Shown piece after piece: positions 883 to 14,891 of a stretch of 41,127 nucleotides of DNA (position 1 is its first letter; each line of letters starts with the position of its first letter). The translations under genes were made by a program, and so were the position numbers. This DNA comes from Deltaproteobacteria bacterium (GTDB taxonomy: Bacteria; Desulfobacterota; Desulfarculia; Adiutricales; Adiutricaceae): positions 1 to 41,127 of the forward strand of contig JAISZC010000217.1 in the NCBI GenBank assembly GCA_031269485.1, read 5' to 3'. Below the pieces are notes generated by a model. The model did not search any database. It was not told where the DNA came from and saw only the letters and a list, made by a program, of their open reading frames with translations.

Positions 883-1374
883 ATGGGCAGCGTTTCCAAA
901 ACCCCGGCTCAGGACATTGATCTGGCCAAACTCGGACCCATCTTCGAGAGCTACAAGCACGTGGTCAACGGAGCTCTCATCCCCGTTCTTCAGGCCGCCC
1001 AGGACGCCTACAGCTACCTGCCGGTCCCAGTTCTGGAGGCCATCGCCGTCAAGCTGGACATCCCCATCAGCCAGATCTACGGCGTGGTTACCTTCTACGC
1101 TCAGTTCCACCTCGAGCCGCGCGGCAAGCACGTCGTCAGGACCTGCCAAGGCACCGCCTGCCACGTCCGCAACGCGTCCCGGATCCTGGAATCCCTCAAA
1201 AACTCCTTGGGCGTCGGACCAGGCGGCACCACCGAAGATCTTCAGTTCACGCTGGAAACGGTGGCCTGCATCGGCGCCTGCAGTCTGGCCCCGGTCATGA
1301 TGGTCGATCACGACACCCATGGCCGCCTCAAGCCAGACTTGGTTCCCAAAATTTTGGATCAATATCGCAACTGA
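883..1374 (+). CDS. hndA: NuoE-like [2Fe-2S] subunit of multimeric [FeFe]-hydrogenase (HndA type)
   Basis: 163 aa, thioredoxin-like ferredoxin fold with CQGTACHVRNA and CIGACSLAPVMMV cysteine motifs; good RBS (aaggag); followed by NuoF-like and H-cluster genes. Confidence 0.9.
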   Translation: MGSVSKTPAQDIDLAKLGPIFESYKHVVNGALIPVLQAAQDAYSYLPVPVLEAIAVKLDIPISQIYGVVTFYAQFHLEPRGKHVVRTCQGTACHVRNASRILESLKNSLGVGPGGTTEDLQFTLETVACIGACSLAPVMMVDHDTHGRLKPDLVPKILDQYRN

Positions 1375-1393
1375 AAGCGGGGTTTAGTCAACT

Positions 1394-3304
1394 ATGAGCC
1401 AAACACCAACCCTGGCCCGTTTGAGCAGTCCGGCCGATCTCGAGGCGCTCAAGATCAAGGCGGCCCCGAAGCTTGGCATTCGCCATGATCCCAAGGCCGC
1501 GCCTTACGAGGGCGTCACCAGCCATATCATGATTTGTTGCGGCACCGGCTGCACCTCCTCCAATTCGCCGGCCATCGTCGAGGCCTTCAAGCAGGAGCTC
1601 GACAAGAACGGCCTGGGCGCCAAGGTAGATGTCGTCATCACCGGCTGTCACGGCTTCTGCGAAATGGGACCCCTGGTGGTCATATATCCCCAGGACATCT
1701 TCTACGTGCTCGTCAAGCTGGAAGACGTCCCCGAAATCGTCGAGCAGTCCATCAAAAACGGCCAGCCGGTCGAAAGGCTGCTCTACCGCGCCCATGCGGA
1801 CTCGGAACCCACCGTACGCTACCACGACATCGACTTTTACGCCAAGCAGAATCGCCTCACGTTGGCCAACTGCGGGCACATCAACCCCGAGGACATCCAC
1901 GAGTACATCGCCAACGACGGTTATCTGGGCCTGGCGAAGGCCTTGGCCCAAAAGGCCGACACCACGGGCCTCCTCGAGGAAGTCAAGAAGTCGGGGCTCC
2001 GCGGCCGCGGCGGCGCCGGCTTCCCCACGGGCCGCAAGTGGGAGCTGTGCCGCAACGTTCCGGGCGAGAAAAAATACGTCATCTGCAACGCCGACGAAGG
2101 CGACCCCGGGGCCTTCATGGACCGTTCGGTCCTGGAGGGCGATCCTCACCGGGTCATCGAGGGCATGGCCATCGGCGCCCTGGTGATCGGGGCCGACGAA
2201 GGCTACATATACGTCCGCGCCGAGTATCCGCTGGCCGTCCACCGCCTCAGGGTGGCCATCGCCCAAGCCGAGGCCATGGGCCTTTTGGGCCAGAACATCC
2301 TCGGCAGCGGCTGGAACTTCGAGCTGCACATCAAGGAGGGCGCCGGCGCCTTCGTCTGCGGCGAAGAGACGGCTCTGATCCAGTCCATCGAAGGCAAGCG
2401 CGGCATGCCCACGGCCCGCCCGCCCTTCCCGGCCGTCTCCGGCCTGTGGGGCAAGCCCACCAACAACAACAACGTCGAGACCTGGGCCAACATCCCGGCC
2501 ATCATCCGCAACGGCGGAGCCTGGTTCGCGGCCTACGGCACCGACAACTCCAAGGGCACCAAGGTCTTCGCCCTCACCGGCAAGGTCAGGCACACCGGCC
2601 TGGCCGAAGTGCCCATGGGCATGAGCATGAGGGAGATCATCTTCAACATCGGCGGCGGCATTTTGGGCGGCAAGAAGTTCAAGGCCGTCCAAATCGGCGG
2701 CCCCTCGGGCGGCTGTCTGCCCGAATCGATGATTGACCGCCCCGTGGACTACGACTCGCTCATCGAGGCCGGCGCCATGATGGGCTCGGGAGGCCTGGTC
2801 GTGGTGGACGAGGACACCTGCATGGTGGATCTGGCCCGCTTCTTCCTGTCCTTCACCCGCGACGAGAGCTGCGGCAAGTGCACCCCCTGCCGCGAGGGCT
2901 CGACCCGCATGCTCAACATCCTCAACAACATCACCCAGGGCAAGGGGCAGTCCGGCGACATCGAACTGCTCGAGGAACTGGCCAGGAACATCAAGCTCAG
3001 CGCCCTATGCGGTCTGGGGCAGACCTGTCCCAACCCCATCCTCTCGACTCTGCGCTACTTCCGCCACGAGTACGAGGCCCACATTTTCGAGAAGAAGTGC
3101 CCGGCCAAGGCCTGCACCGATCTTCTGACCTTCTGGATCGACCCCGACAAGTGCATCGGCTGCGGCGCCTGCAAGAAGCTGTGCCCTGCCACGGCCATTG
3201 AGGGCGAAAAGAAGGAGCCTCACACCATCGACCCGCTCAAATGCGTCAAGTGCGGTTCCTGCCTCGACGCTTGCCGCAAGTCCAAAGCCGTCAGCAAAAA
3301 GTAG
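1394..3304 (+). CDS. hndC: NuoF-like NAD(P)/FMN-binding hydrogenase subunit (HndC type) with N-terminal thioredoxin-like [2Fe-2S] domain and C-terminal 2x[4Fe-4S] domain
   Basis: GRGGAGFPTGRKW, ADEGDPGAFMDR, SCGKCTPCREG, CIGCGACKKLCPA and CVKCGSCLDAC motifs; N-terminal CCGTGCTSS...CHGFCEMGPLV. Confidence 0.95.
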   Translation: MSQTPTLARLSSPADLEALKIKAAPKLGIRHDPKAAPYEGVTSHIMICCGTGCTSSNSPAIVEAFKQELDKNGLGAKVDVVITGCHGFCEMGPLVVIYPQDIFYVLVKLEDVPEIVEQSIKNGQPVERLLYRAHADSEPTVRYHDIDFYAKQNRLTLANCGHINPEDIHEYIANDGYLGLAKALAQKADTTGLLEEVKKSGLRGRGGAGFPTGRKWELCRNVPGEKKYVICNADEGDPGAFMDRSVLEGDPHRVIEGMAIGALVIGADEGYIYVRAEYPLAVHRLRVAIAQAEAMGLLGQNILGSGWNFELHIKEGAGAFVCGEETALIQSIEGKRGMPTARPPFPAVSGLWGKPTNNNNVETWANIPAIIRNGGAWFAAYGTDNSKGTKVFALTGKVRHTGLAEVPMGMSMREIIFNIGGGILGGKKFKAVQIGGPSGGCLPESMIDRPVDYDSLIEAGAMMGSGGLVVVDEDTCMVDLARFFLSFTRDESCGKCTPCREGSTRMLNILNNITQGKGQSGDIELLEELARNIKLSALCGLGQTCPNPILSTLRYFRHEYEAHIFEKKCPAKACTDLLTFWIDPDKCIGCGACKKLCPATAIEGEKKEPHTIDPLKCVKCGSCLDACRKSKAVSKK

Positions 3305-3313
3305 GGAGCCCCA

Positions 3314-5041
3314 ATGAGCAAGACAGTAACCCTGACCATAGACAACCAGCCCGTCACCGTGCAGGCCGGCGTCACCATCTGGGGGGCGGCCCGCAAACTC
3401 GGCATCCATATACCGACCCTGTGCCACCACTTCGACGTCAAGCCCTACAGCGGCTGCCGCGTCTGCGTGGTGGAGGTCCAAGGCGGCCGAGCCTTGGCCG
3501 CGGCCTGCTCCTTCCCCGTCACCGAAGGCCTGGTGGTCTTCACCAACTCGCCCAAGGTCCGGGAGGCTCGCCGCATGGTGGTCGAGCTGCTGCTGGCCAA
3601 CCATCCCAACGAATGCCTGACGTGCTCGCGCAGCCAAAACTGCGAGCTGCAGGCCCTCGCCAGCGAGCTGGGCATCACCAAGGTCCGCTTCCCCCAGGCC
3701 AAGCCCAACTGGCCGCTTGACGAGAGCAACCCCAGCCTGGTGCGCGATCCCAACAAGTGCATCCTGTGCGGCCGCTGCGTGCGCTTCTGTTCCGACAAGC
3801 AGACCTGCAGCGTCTACACCTTCGCCAACCGCGGCTTCAGCTCCACCGTCACCCCGGCCTTCGGCAAGGGCCTGGGCGACGTCAAGTGCGCGCTGTGCGG
3901 CCAGTGCTCGGTCATCTGCCCGACCGGAGCCATCACGGTCAAGGACGACACCGACAAGGTCCTCGACGCCATCAATGATCCCGACAAGGTCGTCATCGTC
4001 CAAACCGCCCCGGCCACCCGCGTGGCCTTGGGCGAGCTCTTCGGCGCCGACACCGGGACCATCGTGACGGGCAAAATGGTGGCGGCGCTCAAGCGCATCG
4101 GCTTCGACGTGGTGCTCGACACCAACTTCACCGCCGACGTGACCATCCTCGAAGAGGCCACCGAGTTCCTGAACCGGTTCAAGGAAAACCGCGACATGCC
4201 CATGATCACCAGCTGCTCGCCGGGCTGGATCAATTTCATGGAAATGTTCTATCCCGAGCTGGTCCAGCACCATTCTTCGTGCAAGAGCCCCCAGCAGATC
4301 TTCGGCGCCTTGGCCAAGACCTGGTACGCGGAAAAGCAGAAGATCGACCCGGCCAAGATCGTCTCCGTCTCGATCATGCCCTGCACGGCCAAGAAGTTCG
4401 AGTGCCGCCGCCCGGAGATGCGCTCCAGCGGCTACCAGGACGTCGACTACGTCCTGACCACTCGCGAGCTGGGCAAGCTCATCAAGAGCTTCGGACTGTC
4501 CTTCAATGACCTGCCTTCGGAAGATTACGACCCGATCATGGGCGTGGGCACCGGCGCCGCCACCATCTTCGGCAACACCGGCGGCGTCATGGAGGCGGCC
4601 ATGCGCACGGCCTACGAAGTGGTCACCAAGAAGACGCTTCCCGGCCTTGAATTCGCCTCCATCCGCGGCCTCGGCGGCCTGCGCGAGGCCGAAGTCGACC
4701 TCGAAGGGACCAAGCTCAAGCTGGCCATCGCCCACGGTCTGGGCAACGCCCGCAAGGTCATGGACCTCATCAAGGAAGGCAATCCCCGCGGCTGGAACTT
4801 CATCGAGGTCATGGCCTGCCCCGGCGGCTGCATCTCCGGCGGCGGCCAGCCCATCAGCCACGATCTCAACTACCGCTCCAAGCGCATCGCCGGCCTCTAC
4901 ACCGACGACCGTCAGCTGCCGTTGCGCAAGAGCCACGACAACCCCGAAGTCAAGCAGCTCTACGCCGAATTCCTCAAGGAGCCCTGCGGCCACAAGAGCC
5001 ACGAGCTGCTGCACACCCCGCTCCCCGGCAGCGGCCACTGA
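3314..5041 (+). CDS. hndD: [FeFe]-hydrogenase catalytic subunit (HndD/HydA type)
   Basis: H-cluster motifs TSCSPGW (L1 variant), MPCTAKKFE (L2), EVMACPGGCISGGGQP (L3); N-terminal [2Fe-2S], His-Cys3 and two [4Fe-4S] ferredoxin motifs. Confidence 0.97.
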   Translation: MSKTVTLTIDNQPVTVQAGVTIWGAARKLGIHIPTLCHHFDVKPYSGCRVCVVEVQGGRALAAACSFPVTEGLVVFTNSPKVREARRMVVELLLANHPNECLTCSRSQNCELQALASELGITKVRFPQAKPNWPLDESNPSLVRDPNKCILCGRCVRFCSDKQTCSVYTFANRGFSSTVTPAFGKGLGDVKCALCGQCSVICPTGAITVKDDTDKVLDAINDPDKVVIVQTAPATRVALGELFGADTGTIVTGKMVAALKRIGFDVVLDTNFTADVTILEEATEFLNRFKENRDMPMITSCSPGWINFMEMFYPELVQHHSSCKSPQQIFGALAKTWYAEKQKIDPAKIVSVSIMPCTAKKFECRRPEMRSSGYQDVDYVLTTRELGKLIKSFGLSFNDLPSEDYDPIMGVGTGAATIFGNTGGVMEAAMRTAYEVVTKKTLPGLEFASIRGLGGLREAEVDLEGTKLKLAIAHGLGNARKVMDLIKEGNPRGWNFIEVMACPGGCISGGGQPISHDLNYRSKRIAGLYTDDRQLPLRKSHDNPEVKQLYAEFLKEPCGHKSHELLHTPLPGSGH

Positions 5042-7992: not shown

Positions 7993-8340
7993 GAAAACCA
8001 GACTCCCCTGCAAACCAGATTCCCCAGCAAACCAGCCCCGAAAACCCGCCCTCCCGAGGACAGCCCCAGGTGGCCGGCCCCGAAGGCCCGGCCCAGAAGG
8101 TCCGCCCCCGACGGCCCGCCGCCGGAAACAGCCCGCAAGCCGGTCCGGCGATCGCCCCTGCCAACCGCCCCTGGCTCTCCATCGCGCGCTCCGCCGCGCC
8201 TTCCGCCGCCCCCTCCCCGCGCCCTCCCCCGCGCCCTCCCCCACGCCTCCGCCAGCCGGCCGCGAAAAAGGCGACCGGCGAGGAGACGGCCAGGCCGCGG
8301 CAGCCAAGGCCATTGTCCAGGCCATTATCCAAGCCAGAGC

Positions 8341-8405
8341 CCAGGCCAGGCCAGGCCAGCCCAGCCCAGCCCAGCCCAGGCCAGGCCAGGCCAGGCCAGG
8401 CCAGA
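8341..8405. repeat. Pentanucleotide tandem array CCAGG x3, CCAGC x4, CCAGG x5 (+CCAGA)
   Basis: 12 consecutive 5-bp units occupy 8341-8400 exactly. Confidence 0.95.
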
Positions 8406-8747
8406 ACCCAAGCCAGGGCGGCCCGCGCCGCTCGCTGGCGGCGGACCTTCGTCCGCGACTTGTCGAGCATTTTTTGCCGCAATTTTCGGCCCTTGCCGCA
8501 GTTTTCAGACCCCTTGTCTTAGTCAATAAATATGTTTTACCTATATTATTAGTTGACTTGACTAGCTATATTGATTTTTTTTCGCGGTTGATTTAAAGTC
8601 AAAGCTTGCAGCGGGCCCGCTTTCACAATCGGGCCTCAGCCGGGACGCGGGCGCCCCGACCACGCGACGGCGGCGCCTACGACCGGCCTGGGCCGCGTTT
8701 TTTCTAAGCCTCAGCGGCGTCAGCCGTTTTGCCATCGAGGAATCATC

Positions 8748-10850
8748 ATGAAAGCTGCTTTTCACACCTTCGCCAAGTCGGCCATCAGGTCGGCGGCGGC
8801 CCTGCTTCTGGGCCTGACCGGGGCCTCGGCCTCCGCGGCCTGGGCCCAAGAAGGCGCCCTGGATTTGCCGCCGGTCATGGTCACCGCCAGAGGCTACGAG
8901 ACCAGCTTGGCCGACATCCCCGGCGGCACGGCCGTGGCCGGAGAGCGCGACGTGGCCCTGGCCGGCCGCAAGGGCAGCCTCGTCGACGCCTTGGATCGGC
9001 TGCCGGGCATTTCACGGACGGGCGACTCGCCCTGGGGCCAGGACATCTCCATCCGCGGCCTCTCCGGACCTTCGGTCGTCATATTGATCGACGGCCGGCG
9101 GATCATCACGGCCACCGACCTCAACGCCCGTCTGGGCTACCTCTCGCCCGACGACGTCGAGCGCATCGAGGTGCTCAAGGGCCCGGTCAGCGCTTTGTAC
9201 GGCTCGGGCTCCTTCGGCGGCGTGGTCAACGTCATCACCCGCAAGCCCCGCGAATTCGCGGACGAGCCGACCTTCGCCGGACGGCTGTCGGCCTCCGGCT
9301 CGACCAACCCCGAAGGCGGCTCGGCCTACGGCTACCTGTCGTACTCCAGCCCAAAATTCGTCATCTCGGCCTCCGGCGGCTACCGCTCCTACGACGACTT
9401 TTTCGGCGCCCATCACGATCGGGTGATCAACAGCGGCTTTCGGGACAGCTTCGGCCGCGCCTACCTGGCCTTCAAGCCGACGGAGGAGGTGACGCTGCGG
9501 ACGGAGTTCGCCAAAGCCGTCGGCCACGACATAGGCCTGCCGGGCGGCGTCTCGTCCATGCCGGCCTTGGCTTGGGTGACGTATCCGACCAGCGAGTTCA
9601 CCATGCTGAGCCAGAGCCTGGCCTACGAGCCGGCCGGCGCCTTGCTCAAAAAACTGGAGCTGGAATTTTATTACACCGCCAACCGCCGTCGGGTGCGGGT
9701 CGACAACATTCCGCCGGTCCCCACGCCTCCAATTCCGGTGGAGCTGCGCCCGCAAGCCGATCACGACACCTTCGGCGGCAAGCTCCAGGCCGTGCTGACG
9801 CCCGGCGACCATGTCCTGACGACCGGAGTCGACTTTTGGACCTGGTCCATGGATTCCAGCCGCTTCCGGATTGTCAGGACTCCGGCCTGGGTCATGTTCA
9901 GGTCGATCGACAAGCCCACCCCGAAAGCCGAGCAACTCTCCGCGGGCTTTTTCGTCGACGACGCCTGGAAGATCACGCCCGACTGGACGCTCAACCTAGG
10001 CGGCCGAGTCGATCGCTTGCGGACCGAAGCCAAGGAAGACCTGTGGCTCGTCAATCCCATCACCGGCGTGCGCATGCGCAAGCTCCAAAACGCCGGCAGC
10101 CAAGTCGACTGGGGCTGGCAGCTCCACGCCGGCGCGACCTGGCGCTTCGCCGAGGACTGGTCGCAAAGCTTGTTGCTGGCGACGGCCTATCGGGCGGCCG
10201 ATTTGCTGGAACGCTACAAATTCATCAGCCTGGGCGGCGGCGTCGAACTCTTCGGCAATCCCAACCTCAAGCCGGAGCGCTCGATCTACGTGGAGCACGG
10301 ACTGCGCTACGACGGCCAGCCTTTCAGCTTTCAAACCAGACTTTTCGCCAACTTCATCGACGACTACATCGTCGAAAGACGAGTCACCGCCGCCAGACGC
10401 GAGATGGCCAACGTCCAAACGGCCCGCATCTTCGGCGCCGAGCTCGAGCTCAACCTCAACCCCCTCGACGGCCTTGACCTCTACGGCTCGCTGGCCTACC
10501 TCCACGGCCAGGATCAGGCCAACCGCCAGCCTCTGCCGGGCGTGGCCCCCCTGACCGCGCTGGTCGGCGTCGAATACCATCACTCGACCGGCCTGTGGGG
10601 CCGGCTGGAAAGCAAATTCTTCGCCAAGCAAAACCGCGCGCCCGTCGGCGTCGAGCGCATGCCGGGGGCGACGACGGTTTCGGCGGCCTTGGGTTGGAAA
10701 GGCTCCTCCGGTCGACTCGAGCACGACGTCTCGCTGGCGGTCCACAACATCTTCGACGAGCGCTACGTCAACGCCCTTTCCCATCAACGCGGCTTCACGG
10801 TCTGGGAGCCGGGCCTGTCGGCCACGCTGACCTACACCCTCAACTTCTGA
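8748..10850 (+). CDS. TonB-dependent outer-membrane receptor
   Basis: 700 aa, signal peptide, plug domain (DLPPVMVTARGYETSLADIPGG...SIRGLSGPSVVILIDGRRI...VERIEVLKGPVSALYGSGSFGGVVNVITRKP), terminal aromatic residue (LTYTLNF). Confidence 0.95.
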   Translation: MKAAFHTFAKSAIRSAAALLLGLTGASASAAWAQEGALDLPPVMVTARGYETSLADIPGGTAVAGERDVALAGRKGSLVDALDRLPGISRTGDSPWGQDISIRGLSGPSVVILIDGRRIITATDLNARLGYLSPDDVERIEVLKGPVSALYGSGSFGGVVNVITRKPREFADEPTFAGRLSASGSTNPEGGSAYGYLSYSSPKFVISASGGYRSYDDFFGAHHDRVINSGFRDSFGRAYLAFKPTEEVTLRTEFAKAVGHDIGLPGGVSSMPALAWVTYPTSEFTMLSQSLAYEPAGALLKKLELEFYYTANRRRVRVDNIPPVPTPPIPVELRPQADHDTFGGKLQAVLTPGDHVLTTGVDFWTWSMDSSRFRIVRTPAWVMFRSIDKPTPKAEQLSAGFFVDDAWKITPDWTLNLGGRVDRLRTEAKEDLWLVNPITGVRMRKLQNAGSQVDWGWQLHAGATWRFAEDWSQSLLLATAYRAADLLERYKFISLGGGVELFGNPNLKPERSIYVEHGLRYDGQPFSFQTRLFANFIDDYIVERRVTAARREMANVQTARIFGAELELNLNPLDGLDLYGSLAYLHGQDQANRQPLPGVAPLTALVGVEYHHSTGLWGRLESKFFAKQNRAPVGVERMPGATTVSAALGWKGSSGRLEHDVSLAVHNIFDERYVNALSHQRGFTVWEPGLSATLTYTLNF

Positions 10851-10953: not shown

Positions 10954-12089
10954 CGCGGTCTCGGTCCGGTTTCGCGGTCGGCGCCAGGTGGTTGGCGGTC
11001 GGCGCGGCGGGCTCGACGAGCCCGAACGCGCCCGACGACGGCGACGACCAAGCGGCGACGACCAAGCGACGCCCGGAGAAGCCGCCGCCAGCCGCGACGG
11101 GGGCCCGCCGATTTTCCTTCGACGCTCGCGCTCGCGCCGATCATTGACGCGCAAGCGGCGCCCATGACGCCAGTCAGGCCGACGCCTGGGACGTCAAGCC
11201 GACCGCCGGCCTGGCGCAGACCGGCCTCGTCGCCGACCTCCTCGCCGACGGGACGGCCCCGCGACCGCCAAAAAAAAAGTCCTTAGGCCAAATGCCAAGG
11301 CTGGTCAACGTAAATTTTCCATCGCCAATTGGCCAATTTTAATGGCCCGTCGGCTGGGCGTCGTGACGCGCCGCCCCGGCCGGCCGAAAATCGTCGGCCG
11401 CTCCGGTTCGACGAGAGACCACAGGACGGCTCAAGCTCGGACCGGCCGAAAAAACAATCGCCGCGAGACTCGGCTTCGTTCTTCGCTCGTTGAGCGACGA
11501 CGCGACGACAGGCCCTGCGGCCGCGCCGCCAAGCGGACGGCCTTCAGGCGGACGGCCGCCAAGCGGCAGCTGAGGCCGTCGTTTTCGGACGGCGTCCAGA
11601 GCCGCGCTCAGGCCGGCGGCCGGAACGTCAATCAGACCGCCTTTCAACCCGCCTTTTTGGCCGCCGATCTGGCCCCGCCTTTCTGGCCGCCTTCAAGCCG
11701 CCGGCCTGCCGCCGGCCTGGCGCCGGCCGGCCTCGTCACGGCCCAGGCGGCGATCATGAAACCCGCGGGCGGCCGCCTCAAGATCACCGCGCGGGGCCGT
11801 CATTTTTTTCGGCCCGGGCCAAATTTTTTCTCTCTCCGCCCGACCCCAAGCCTCAAAAGGCGAAGGCCCGGTCTTGACGGCGAGGCGTCGGCCGCTCCTC
11901 CCAAGCGCCAATTGATCGCCTGACCGACGCCCGTCGAAAAATTTTTCTCCCCCTCCACGGCCAAAATTTTCTTCCCGGCCGTCCGAATCCCTTAGGTCCG
12001 CCCCCCTTTTTCAGGCCTAATACCCCGAAATAACTGGCAAAAAAAAATTTCTCCTGGCCAGCCTAAAAGGGTCTTTTTACTATTGCAAT

Positions 12090-12104
12090 TGAGAATCATT
12101 TAGT
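12090..12104. promoter_or_regulatory. Fur-box-like half-conserved site TGAGAAT-C-ATTTAGT upstream of flavodoxin
   Basis: Left half matches TGATAAT 6/7, right half weaker; about 100 bp upstream of flavodoxin start. Confidence 0.3.
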
Positions 12105-12199: not shown

Positions 12200-12646
12200 A
12201 TGTCCAACGTGTTGATAGTTTACGGCTCCACCACCGGCAACACCGAATGGGTGGCCGGCAAGCTCGCCGCCCAAATCAAGGAAGCCGGCCACACGGTCGA
12301 GTCGGCCAAGGCCGGCTCCATCGGCGCCTCGGGGCTCTGCTCCGGCCGCGACTTGGTCCTTTTCGGCTGCTCGACCTGGGGTCAGGACGAAATCGAGCTC
12401 CAAGACGATTTCATTCCGCTCTTTGAGGCCTTCGACTCCATCGGGGCCTCCGGCGTCAAAATCGGCGTGTTCGGCTGCGGCGACGAAGATTACACCCATT
12501 TCTGCGGGGCCGTGGACGCCATCACCGGGAAGCTCGAGGGCCTAGGGGCCAAGCTGGTCGGCGGCAAGCTCAAAATCAACGGCGACCCTGGGGACTCCGA
12601 AGCGGCCGTCGCCACCTGGGGTCAGGCGGTGCTGGCGGCCCTCTGA
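12200..12646 (+). CDS. Flavodoxin
   Basis: MSNVLIVYGSTTGNTEWVAGKLA...FGCSTWGQDEIELQDDFIPLFE...VGVFGCGDEDYTHFCGAVD-type flavodoxin signature; start ATG at 12200. Confidence 0.93.
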   Translation: MSNVLIVYGSTTGNTEWVAGKLAAQIKEAGHTVESAKAGSIGASGLCSGRDLVLFGCSTWGQDEIELQDDFIPLFEAFDSIGASGVKIGVFGCGDEDYTHFCGAVDAITGKLEGLGAKLVGGKLKINGDPGDSEAAVATWGQAVLAAL

Positions 12647-12724: not shown

Positions 12725-13957
12725 TTGGAACGGTGCGAGCAAATGGAAACTGAATTGGCGCTCAACAAGATGTTCAACAACGTTTGGCCCCACCTGGGGG
12801 AGCGGGAACGGCGCCTGGTCGCCGCCAGCGAAGCCAGGCGGATCGGCCGACGCGGCATATCCATGGTCAGCCGGGCTTGCGGGCTGTCGCGAGTGACCAT
12901 CACCAAAGGCCTCAAAGAGCTCGACGAGGCGCCTTTGGCGCCGGGCAAGACCAGACGCGCCGGGGCCGGCCGGCCACGGGTCGAGAAGGTCGATCCCGGC
13001 ATTTGGCGGTCGCTCGACGGCCTGATGCGGGAGACCACCTGCCAGGAAACTTGCCCGGCCCTGCTGTGGTCCGTCAAGTCCACCAGGCGCCTGGCCCAGG
13101 AGCTGACGGCCGACGGACACCGCATCAGCCATGAGAAAGTGGCCCAGATCCTGCGCCAGAACGGCTACAACCTCCAAGGCACCCGCTGCAACGAAGAAAG
13201 CCGGCTTCAGCCCGACCGCGACGCCCAGTTCAGGCACGTGGGACGCCGAGCCGCCGCTCGTTTGGCCGAAGGCCAGCCGGTGGTGGCCATCGACACCCGT
13301 CGCCGCGAGCCCGCCTTCGTCGCCGAGACCCGAACCGGCCACGGCGCGTTCGCCTCTTCGGACCGCCTGCTGCAAGGCGATTGCCCCACCGGCATCTACG
13401 ACCCCCAACTGGCTCGGGACGCCGTCAACGTCGAGACGGCCCTGGAGGCCGCGGCCTTCACCACCGACTCCATCCTGGGCTGGTGGCTCATCGAGGGCCA
13501 GGAGCTCTACCCTCACGCCCAGTGCCTGATGGTCGCCGCCGACGGAGTCGGCGCCAACCAGCGCTCCCAATGGAAACGCCAGATGCAGAAGCTGGCCGCG
13601 GCCATCGGCCTGCCGGTGGAGTTCTGCCGCTTTCCCCCAGGCACCTCCAAGTGGAACCGCCCCAGCCAGCGGCTGTTTTCCTTCGTTTCCTCGCAGTGGG
13701 CCGGCGAAACTGAGCGCGACTACGAAATTTCGGCCAAAATCGTCTCTCCGCCGTCCGAAACGCGGACCATGGCCCTGGGCCTGCGGCTCGACCACAGCCG
13801 CTTCCGCCTTCCGACCAGGCCGCCCGAAGACGATCGGGCCCTGCTGATTTACCCCTCCGAGTTCCACGGAGACTGGAACTTCACCATTCGCCCCGAAGCC
13901 TTGGGGCCCTACCAACTGCCGGTCTGCGGGCGCGACCGTCTGGCCGCCGCCATGTAA
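12725..13957 (+). mobile_element. ISAzo13-family-like transposase ORF (410 aa), possibly catalytically inactive or domesticated
   Basis: ISAzo13 / Rhodopirellula-type DDE signatures (SVKSTRRLAQELTADGHRISHEKVAQILRQNGYNLQ, DRDAQF, VVAIDTRRRE, CRFPPGTSKWN..RLFSF, FHGDWNFTIRP); no terminal inverted repeats identified. Confidence 0.8.
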
Positions 13958-14014
13958 CGCCGCCTTTAAACGCCGCCAATAACCCCCCAAACCCGGAGTC
14001 CCTCCTCTTCGGTC

Positions 14015-14047
14015 GAAACGGGCCGCGAACTGTTCGCGGCCCGTTTC
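14015..14047 (+). terminator. Perfect 16-bp inverted repeat (GAAACGGGCCGCGAAC t GTTCGCGGCCCGTTTC)
   Basis: Read directly; immediately downstream of the transposase ORF, no T-tract. Confidence 0.5.
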
Positions 14048-14495
14048 GTCTGCTCCGCCTCGCCTGCCTTTTCGGGCGTCTCCAAAGTCATCTAGATGTC
14101 ATTCCCTCACATAACTCGCGTTTTTTTCGCTTCAAGCTTGCAAAATCATTCATTTTGCCTCAAAATAACATTAGCGCAAGTTCCGAGCGGCGCGCCGCCG
14201 CCCTGACGGACCATCCGGCCGATGACGGCCAATGACGGCCCAGGGCGTCGGCGCTCGGCGGCCGAGCCCGGCCCGCCGTCCGCCGCGGCTTGACAAAAGA
14301 CGCTCAAATATCTTATCATTGAGCCATAGGACATGGAGGCAGTTGTTTCGTCTGCCCACGGCGCCAAAGCCGCCGGGGCGTCCGCCTCGCCGCGGCCCCC
14401 GCCTCGCGGCCGGCGGGCCTGCCGAGACGCCGCCCGCGAGTTTGGCCCATGACCTTTCAGCTGGGCGGGAACCGTTTTTTTCTTGAAGGTGAGCC

Positions 14496-14891
14496 ATGGT
14501 TTTCGACGCTCTGCACTTGGCCGTCATCGTCTTTTTGGCCGCGGCGGCCATCTTCGCCGCCTCGCCGCTGGTCATCGCCTTTCTGATCGCTCCCCGCAAC
14601 CGCGGCGGAGAGTTTCAGACGCCCTACGAGTGCGGAGTCAAGCCCTACGGACGCGCCTGGGACCATTTCGGCTTCAATTACCACATTTATGCTCTGATCT
14701 TCATCGCCTTCGACGTCGACGTTCTCTATCTGATCCCGGTCGGAGCGGCCTATCGATTGCTGCCCGGACTGATGCCGTTGGCCGAGCTGAGCTTTTTTCT
14801 TTTTTTCGTCCTCTTGGCCGTGCTCTACTTTAACGCCAAAGGCGTCTTTTATTGGCCTCGTCGACTGACAATGCCTCAAACATTGGAATAA
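14496..14891 (+). CDS. nuoA: NADH-quinone oxidoreductase subunit A
   Basis: PYECGVKPYG and FDVDVLYLIPVG motifs; first gene of the nuo cluster. Confidence 0.95.
   Translation: MVFDALHLAVIVFLAAAAIFAASPLVIAFLIAPRNRGGEFQTPYECGVKPYGRAWDHFGFNYHIYALIFIAFDVDVLYLIPVGAAYRLLPGLMPLAELSFFLFFVLLAVLYFNAKGVFYWPRRLTMPQTLE

Follow-up and report, generated by a model that had tools for sequence, protein, structure and literature searches.

A gene of the ISAzo13 transposase family has, in our reading, been converted into a regulator of transcription within one family of Deltaproteobacteria. We describe this gene in a window of 41,127 nucleotides, the whole stretch of DNA that was analysed. We consider it likely, with good but incomplete confidence, that a dead DDE transposase was exapted as a regulator that uses transposon-end-like DNA as its operator, is linked to flavodoxin and Fur, and activates a metal-ATPase operon. 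According to this proposal, an ISAzo13 transposase would have been captured by an ancestor within the family, would have lost its cutting activity, and would have been kept as a transcription regulator whose expression is coupled to that of the flavodoxin gene upstream. Through its unchanged helix-turn-helix (HTH), the protein would still recognise the transposon's former end sequence, GTCAATAAATAAnnTTTACA, and it would activate target promoters from a position ~15-23 nt upstream of a sigma-70 -35 element. The chief target would be an operon encoding a small membrane protein and a P1B metal ATPase, possibly joined in some genera by the NADH-[FeFe]-hydrogenase operon. Coordinates of the features are collected in the table; handles such as G004, g5, and L124 denote genomes, genera, and loci.

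Features of the window and of related loci
Feature	Position	Strand	Basis or remark
NADH-dependent [FeFe]-hydrogenase operon (NuoE-like, NuoF-like, HydA-like)	898..5038	+	no end-like site at this copy; counterpart in g2/g4/g7/g8 has one
ISAzo13-end-like site, candidate operator	8522..8541	+	18.1 bits, best in window (next 10.1); not conserved
TonB-dependent receptor gene, candidate target	8748..10847	+	PF00593/PF07715
Fur-box-like element CTATTGCAATTGAGAATCATTTA, upstream of flavodoxin	12080..12102	+	conservation and resemblance
Flavodoxin gene, conserved upstream partner	12200..12646	+	TIGR01753; adjacent in 22/23 loci
ISAzo13-like transposase CDS, 404 aa, domesticated; proposed DNA-binding regulator	12743..13957	+	NF033519/PF07592, orthologue starts, dN/dS 0.11
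HTH codons, residues 38-60, GISMVSRACGLSRVTITKGLKEL	12854..12922	+	group consensus, invariant columns, region dN/dS 0.037
D184, first catalytic Asp position (D1)	13292..13294	+	alignment; Asp in window copy, Glu in 21/23 orthologues
D267, second catalytic Asp position (D2)	13541..13543	+	alignment; Asp in 18/23, Glu in 5/23
Ser308, replacing catalytic Glu	13664..13666	+	alignment
nuoA, first gene of downstream nuo operon; variable neighbour	14496..14891	+	without consistent end-like site
Second paralogue loci (relatives)	L055-L065, L106-L116 (e.g. L109:635-1609)		relatives' loci

Identity and descent of the transposase-derived gene

The open frame at 12725-13957 is real. It matches the ISAzo13 profile NF033519 over residues 21-390 (E 8e-85; 285 bits against a cutoff of 200) as well as PF07592 (5.5e-60), and the initial annotation was correct in calling it a full-length ISAzo13-like transposase. 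The 410 codons it counted are indeed open; the true start is the in-frame ATG at 12743, the Met at which orthologues also begin, so that the protein has 404 residues. Its central claim, that the catalytic Glu is gone, is borne out by alignment of the segment FPPGTSKWNRPSQRLFS with FPPGTSKWNKVEHRLFS of the 14 nearest intact relatives. Since all 14 retain the Glu of WNKVEHRLFS, Ser308 occupies the catalytic position, and the DDE triad is incomplete. The remaining features reported at the outset are also present: the HDTxxFA motif reads LEAAAF, the final FHGDWNF block is unbroken, and no terminal inverted repeats lie within 400 nt of 12743-13957, in a scan that was positive in 11 of the 14 intact relatives. 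A search of the window's own genome for other copies returned none, the closest sequence being a paralogue of 31% identity. Predicted structures of the window protein and of an intact relative (pLDDT 79.7 and 76.3) are alike in secondary structure; when the model was compared with the PDB by Foldseek, no solved structure matched it significantly. Just 3' of the gene, a 35-nt self-complementary hairpin (14014-14048, 97%) with a short T run is a possible terminator.

We searched 98 genomes for orthologues, including 37 of the same bacterial family; nearly all genomes compared are draft MAGs. Judging by isolate codes and general knowledge, we take the relatives' Deltaproteobacteria MAGs to be termite-gut Candidatus Adiutricaceae. 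An orthologue is present in 26 of the 37 family genomes, always as one gene per genome: the window copy, 22 other full-length copies with 54-71% identity, and three incomplete copies (G006, G015, G024), which lie on fragments or at the ends of contigs. None was found outside the family in the 98 genomes, and the gene is missing from each of the seven genomes in genus g5. The orthologues span ten genera and form one clade (support 100/99) whose sub-clades track genus, the pattern of vertical descent. Every full-length copy has an unbroken reading frame, and all 23 have lost the catalytic Glu, in favour of Ser (8), Ala (8), Cys (5), Asn (1), or Gln (1). A loss fixed in every full-length orthologue is not chance.

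Selection has preserved the gene throughout. The dN/dS ratio is 0.110 over the whole gene, and by region it is 0.037 for residues 1-92 (the HTH part), 0.063 for 93-170, 0.116 for 171-325 (the catalytic part), and 0.164 for the C-terminus; the comparators are 0.071 for flavodoxin, 0.041 for nuoB, and 0.082 for active ISAzo13. Strong purifying selection, together with the orthologues, indicates a gene that is domesticated rather than decaying, with the HTH part as the most constrained. The evidence strongly favours capture of an ISAzo13-family DDE transposase by an ancestor within the family and its domestication as a DNA-binding regulator, one of two outcomes the initial annotation had offered; loss of catalysis and DNA binding remain inferences.

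The other outcome, very recent inactivation, is excluded by orthologues in ten genera and a dN/dS of 0.11. A recent pseudogene, an insertion sequence on its way to loss, would account for the missing Glu and the absent terminal repeats; with the same loss across ten genera, intact frames, and an HTH part at 0.037, we give this explanation very little credence. Even less credible to us is an active transposase that employs a different acidic residue. D1 and D2 are both present in the window copy; among orthologues, no conserved Glu or Asp in the alignment substitutes for residue 308, and the two Asp positions themselves drift to Glu (D1 in 21 of 23 copies, D2 in five). Single copy number, fixed synteny, and the lack of terminal repeats also speak against continued transposition, and an alternative catalytic Glu was rejected on the alignment. 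Thus, the observations that had been named in advance as refuting domestication, namely another Glu near the site, mobile copies of the frame, or a want of orthologues in relatives, were not made.

The flavodoxin neighbour and a Fur-box-like element

In 22 of the 23 loci, all except G008, the flavodoxin gene, of the iron-starvation type, lies directly upstream of the transposase-derived gene, in the same orientation and at a gap of ~65-580 nt. Conversely, a full-length flavodoxin match was obtained in 25 family genomes, 23 of which carry the transposase gene beside it; those without are G004 and G026, of g5. Of the two neighbours to which the initial annotation drew attention, flavodoxin is the one that matters, and adjacency to nuo is variable: the nuo genes and the hydrogenase operon are neighbours in some genera only. 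An Rfam search of the tested loci detected no RNA element except a tRNA.

A 23-mer resembling a Fur box precedes every flavodoxin examined; it mostly reads CTATTGCAATTGAGAATCAGTTA and is more divergent in g6. Similar boxes occur before flavodoxin in the two g5 genomes without the transposase gene and upstream of an FbpA-like iron-transport gene in G025. The identification as a Fur box is an inference from resemblance alone, without Fur binding data. Given such an element at the flavodoxin promoter region, the regulator would be made under iron scarcity, and it is probably an activator that relays Fur or iron status; its binding, its activating effect, and the iron signal are all inferred. In the long-gap genera (g2, g4, g7, and g8), promoter-like sequences are visible by eye before the transposase gene itself. 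Elsewhere, a Fur-box-like element also stands before similar exported proteins, nitroreductase/SagB-like in looks, at L124 (the window's own genome, C67:689) and L153 (G007).

Transposon-end-like sites and candidate target promoters

The HTH core SRACGLSRVT.TKG is identical in active ISAzo13 elements and in the orthologues. We scanned 37 genomes for sequences like the ends of active elements, which read GTCAATAAATAAnnTTTACA, allowing at most 2 mismatches and using the reversed pattern as a control, which the end-like sites clearly outnumber. Two contexts recur. The first is a site before a conserved gene for a membrane-protein-like product of ~81 aa, found in five g10 genomes; this small protein has no Pfam family match, and its gene is followed by that of a P1B heavy-metal ATPase (TIGR01525, 7e-142). 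The second is a site in G001, G003, and G032 that precedes hydrogenase-type operons whose first gene is NuoE-like. Single-genome sites lie near a 4Fe-4S protein, a protein with a secretin/TonB-type N-terminus, a periplasmic protein, and a NapC/NrfH-like cytochrome (L166, L167, L168, and L176), neighbours that are possible further regulon members.

For the first context, we collected the small-membrane-protein gene from all genomes by protein homology and scored the 450 nt upstream with a matrix built solely from active-element ends, with no learning from promoters. At least 12 bits are reached in 19 of 23 tested genomes that carry the regulator gene; in a twentieth site-bearing genome, G025, the site is ~525 nt upstream and thus outside the scored region. 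Five discovery loci had been found with the site pattern itself, and their exclusion leaves 15 of 18 gene-bearing genomes as an independent test. Three genomes with the regulator gene (G011, G013, and G017) lack a strong site here. The clean absences of the gene (G004, G005, G012, G026, and G030) score -5.3 to 6.1 and thus lack an end-like site there; sites of 13.1 and 26.5 bits occur in G010 (92% complete) and G033 (74% complete), in neither of which the regulator gene was found. In random windows, 12 bits is reached by 16 of 1500; in a second pool, which includes hydrogenase loci with their own sites, by 108 of 2000. Operator-like sites upstream of these target promoters are thus conserved and co-occur with the regulator gene. 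Because the genomes are related, the independent contrasts in this pattern of presence and absence are few, namely G005 and genus g5. The small-membrane-protein gene was not detected in the 76%-complete assembly of the window genome.

Nearly all genomes with a strong site also have a TTGnnn-N17-TAnnnT-like promoter that begins 15-23 nt past it (37 nt in G003); the distance is 15-17 nt in one orientation and 20-23 nt in the other. Taken singly, the promoter calls often stand out only weakly from shuffled sequences; the constant spacing, which is striking, is the stronger argument. It would centre the site near -60 to -68, a usual position for an activator. Real IS ends have an outer GGCG tip that is absent at promoter sites, which makes these sites unlikely to be solo transposon remnants.

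There are two rival accounts of the sites. The first holds that the protein was domesticated for another DNA-binding role, such as nucleoid or chromosome architecture or the silencing of ISAzo13 elements through occupancy of their ends, and that the sites serve that role or another regulator. A dead end-binder could inhibit transposition, Glu-intact ISAzo13 relatives persist in several family members (L028, L031), and G004, which lacks the gene, holds 25 scattered end-like sequences (e.g., L156 and L182). Two of these that we inspected have the common flank ggctctGTCAATAAATAA..CT.TACATC, and the 25 are probably, as far as sequence can tell, remnants of an ISAzo13-type or MITE element. Against this role, the window's own genome has no good IS-end matches, only three 3-mismatch matches to the 21-mer; the sites stand at a fixed distance from a promoter-like sequence, before the same gene in many genera and without the GGCG tip; and linkage to flavodoxin fits physiology better than defence. 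We judge this account unlikely.

The second supposes that an unrelated regulator binds the promoter sites, that their motif resembles ISAzo13 ends by chance, and that the domesticated protein has other targets. Direct binding evidence is indeed lacking, as are expression data, and the motif is AT-rich and includes TTTACA. The motif was, however, derived from IS ends and not from promoters, and the HTH is the same in the insertion sequences and the orthologues. In addition, g5 and G005, which lack the gene, also lack the sites, and the reversed matrix scores mostly low at the same P1B-ATPase operon promoters. Coincidence of this kind seems to us somewhat less likely again than a different DNA-binding role. 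Regulation of the metal-ATPase promoter by the transposase-derived protein remains our preferred reading.

The same upstream regions suggest how that regulation may have arisen. Fur-like boxes of 15-29 bits occupy them in G004, G012, G026, and G030; gene-bearing genomes have end-like sites there and, except for G006 and G017, no Fur-like box. The background rate of such boxes is 0 of 2000 windows at 14 bits. Within the few phylogenetic contrasts available, this suggests that direct control by Fur was replaced by a route from Fur through flavodoxin and the regulator to the end-like site, or that the reverse took place.

Other candidates are less secure. A site of 10-26 bits, in a single orientation, lies 523-715 nt upstream of hndA in 9 of 9 genomes of g2, g4, g7, and g8; other genera have no end-like site upstream of hndA, and the one in G004 is probably a remnant. 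These sites are far upstream, without a clear promoter, and the NADH-[FeFe]-hydrogenase operon is only possibly a target in some genera, in the absence of binding data. The only strong site within the window sits 206 nt before the TonB-dependent receptor gene and is not conserved at the orthologues of that gene in G007 and G003. A run of short CCAGG/CCAGC repeats (8340-8410) lies upstream of the promoter region of the same gene. There is no consistent end-like site before flavodoxin, the transposase-derived gene itself, or nuoA, and hence no evidence for autoregulation or for nuo as a target. The initial annotation had placed a possible regulator next to the flavodoxin and nuo genes; its targets likely lie elsewhere, at the metal P1B-ATPase operon and, for certain genera, at the hydrogenase operon.

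A second paralogue and comparison with known systems

Eleven genomes of g2, g4, g7, and g8 contain a second inactivated ISAzo13-derived paralogue. In the tree it is sister to the orthologues (94/94) on a long branch, and it has the same HTH motif. Its linker ranges from short to hundreds of residues, with EASGE-type repeats (L056). Downstream lie a cysteine synthase, identified by profile match, and, from reading of the sequence, a JAMM-like peptidase, ThiS-like and MoeZ-like proteins, a family-2-encapsulin-like shell protein, and a SufS-like desulfurase with a long N-terminus. Upstream, L061 and L063 have a leader in common, CGGCTGATCATC...ATGAAGGCTGAAA, with a terminator-like hairpin and a T run after it; the leader is attenuator-like and has no Rfam match. 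A wider proposition, that a DDE transposase became an iron/redox regulator, its end sequence an operator code, a metal-transport promoter was taken over from Fur, and a related gene became a second regulator beside sulfur and encapsulin-like genes, is tentative, and as a whole we would sooner doubt it than assert it. The physiological role in particular is inferred.

Eukaryotes are well known to have exapted transposases as transcription factors; for bacteria, the recent clear examples are the TldRs, which derive from TnpB and are RNA-guided. In the open-access literature, we found no DDE insertion-sequence transposase described as having become a conventional regulator of promoters with its element's end sequence retained as operator. 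Orthologues are available from ten genera, some lineages lack the gene, the parent element has living relatives, and the motif is defined, so that the path from selfish element to regulator can be tested step by step. The case also serves as a warning that genes annotated as transposases can be core regulators.

The window protein shares with ISAzo13-family transposases (NF033519, PF07592) homology over the whole length, an identical HTH core, and conserved blocks; it differs in lacking the catalytic Glu and terminal repeats, in a D1 that is usually Glu among orthologues, and in its single copy and fixed synteny. Among domesticated bacterial transposases, TnpA-REP is of a different kind, tied to dispersed REP repeats that it is thought to mobilise (PMC8266576), and is not a promoter regulator, unlike the role proposed here. 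The passages on transposases in a review of exaptation cover roles other than transcription regulator (PMC8987985). TldRs are nuclease-dead TnpB proteins, derived from bacterial insertion sequences, that have lost catalytic residues, are linked to a non-transposon gene, and regulate transcription (PMC13418256); they are RNA-guided and descend from a nuclease, whereas the window protein, a DDE transposase, carries an HTH of its own, shows no evidence of a guide RNA, and is probably an activator. In SETMAR, the Hsmar1-derived protein of primates, the transposase-derived DNA-binding domain keeps its specificity for the terminal repeats, which serve as genomic binding sites (PMC9062482). SETMAR is a eukaryotic mariner-methyltransferase fusion with thousands of sites left by transposition (PMC9062482); the window protein, unlike it, is bacterial and unfused, with few promoter sites, placed like the operators of an activator.
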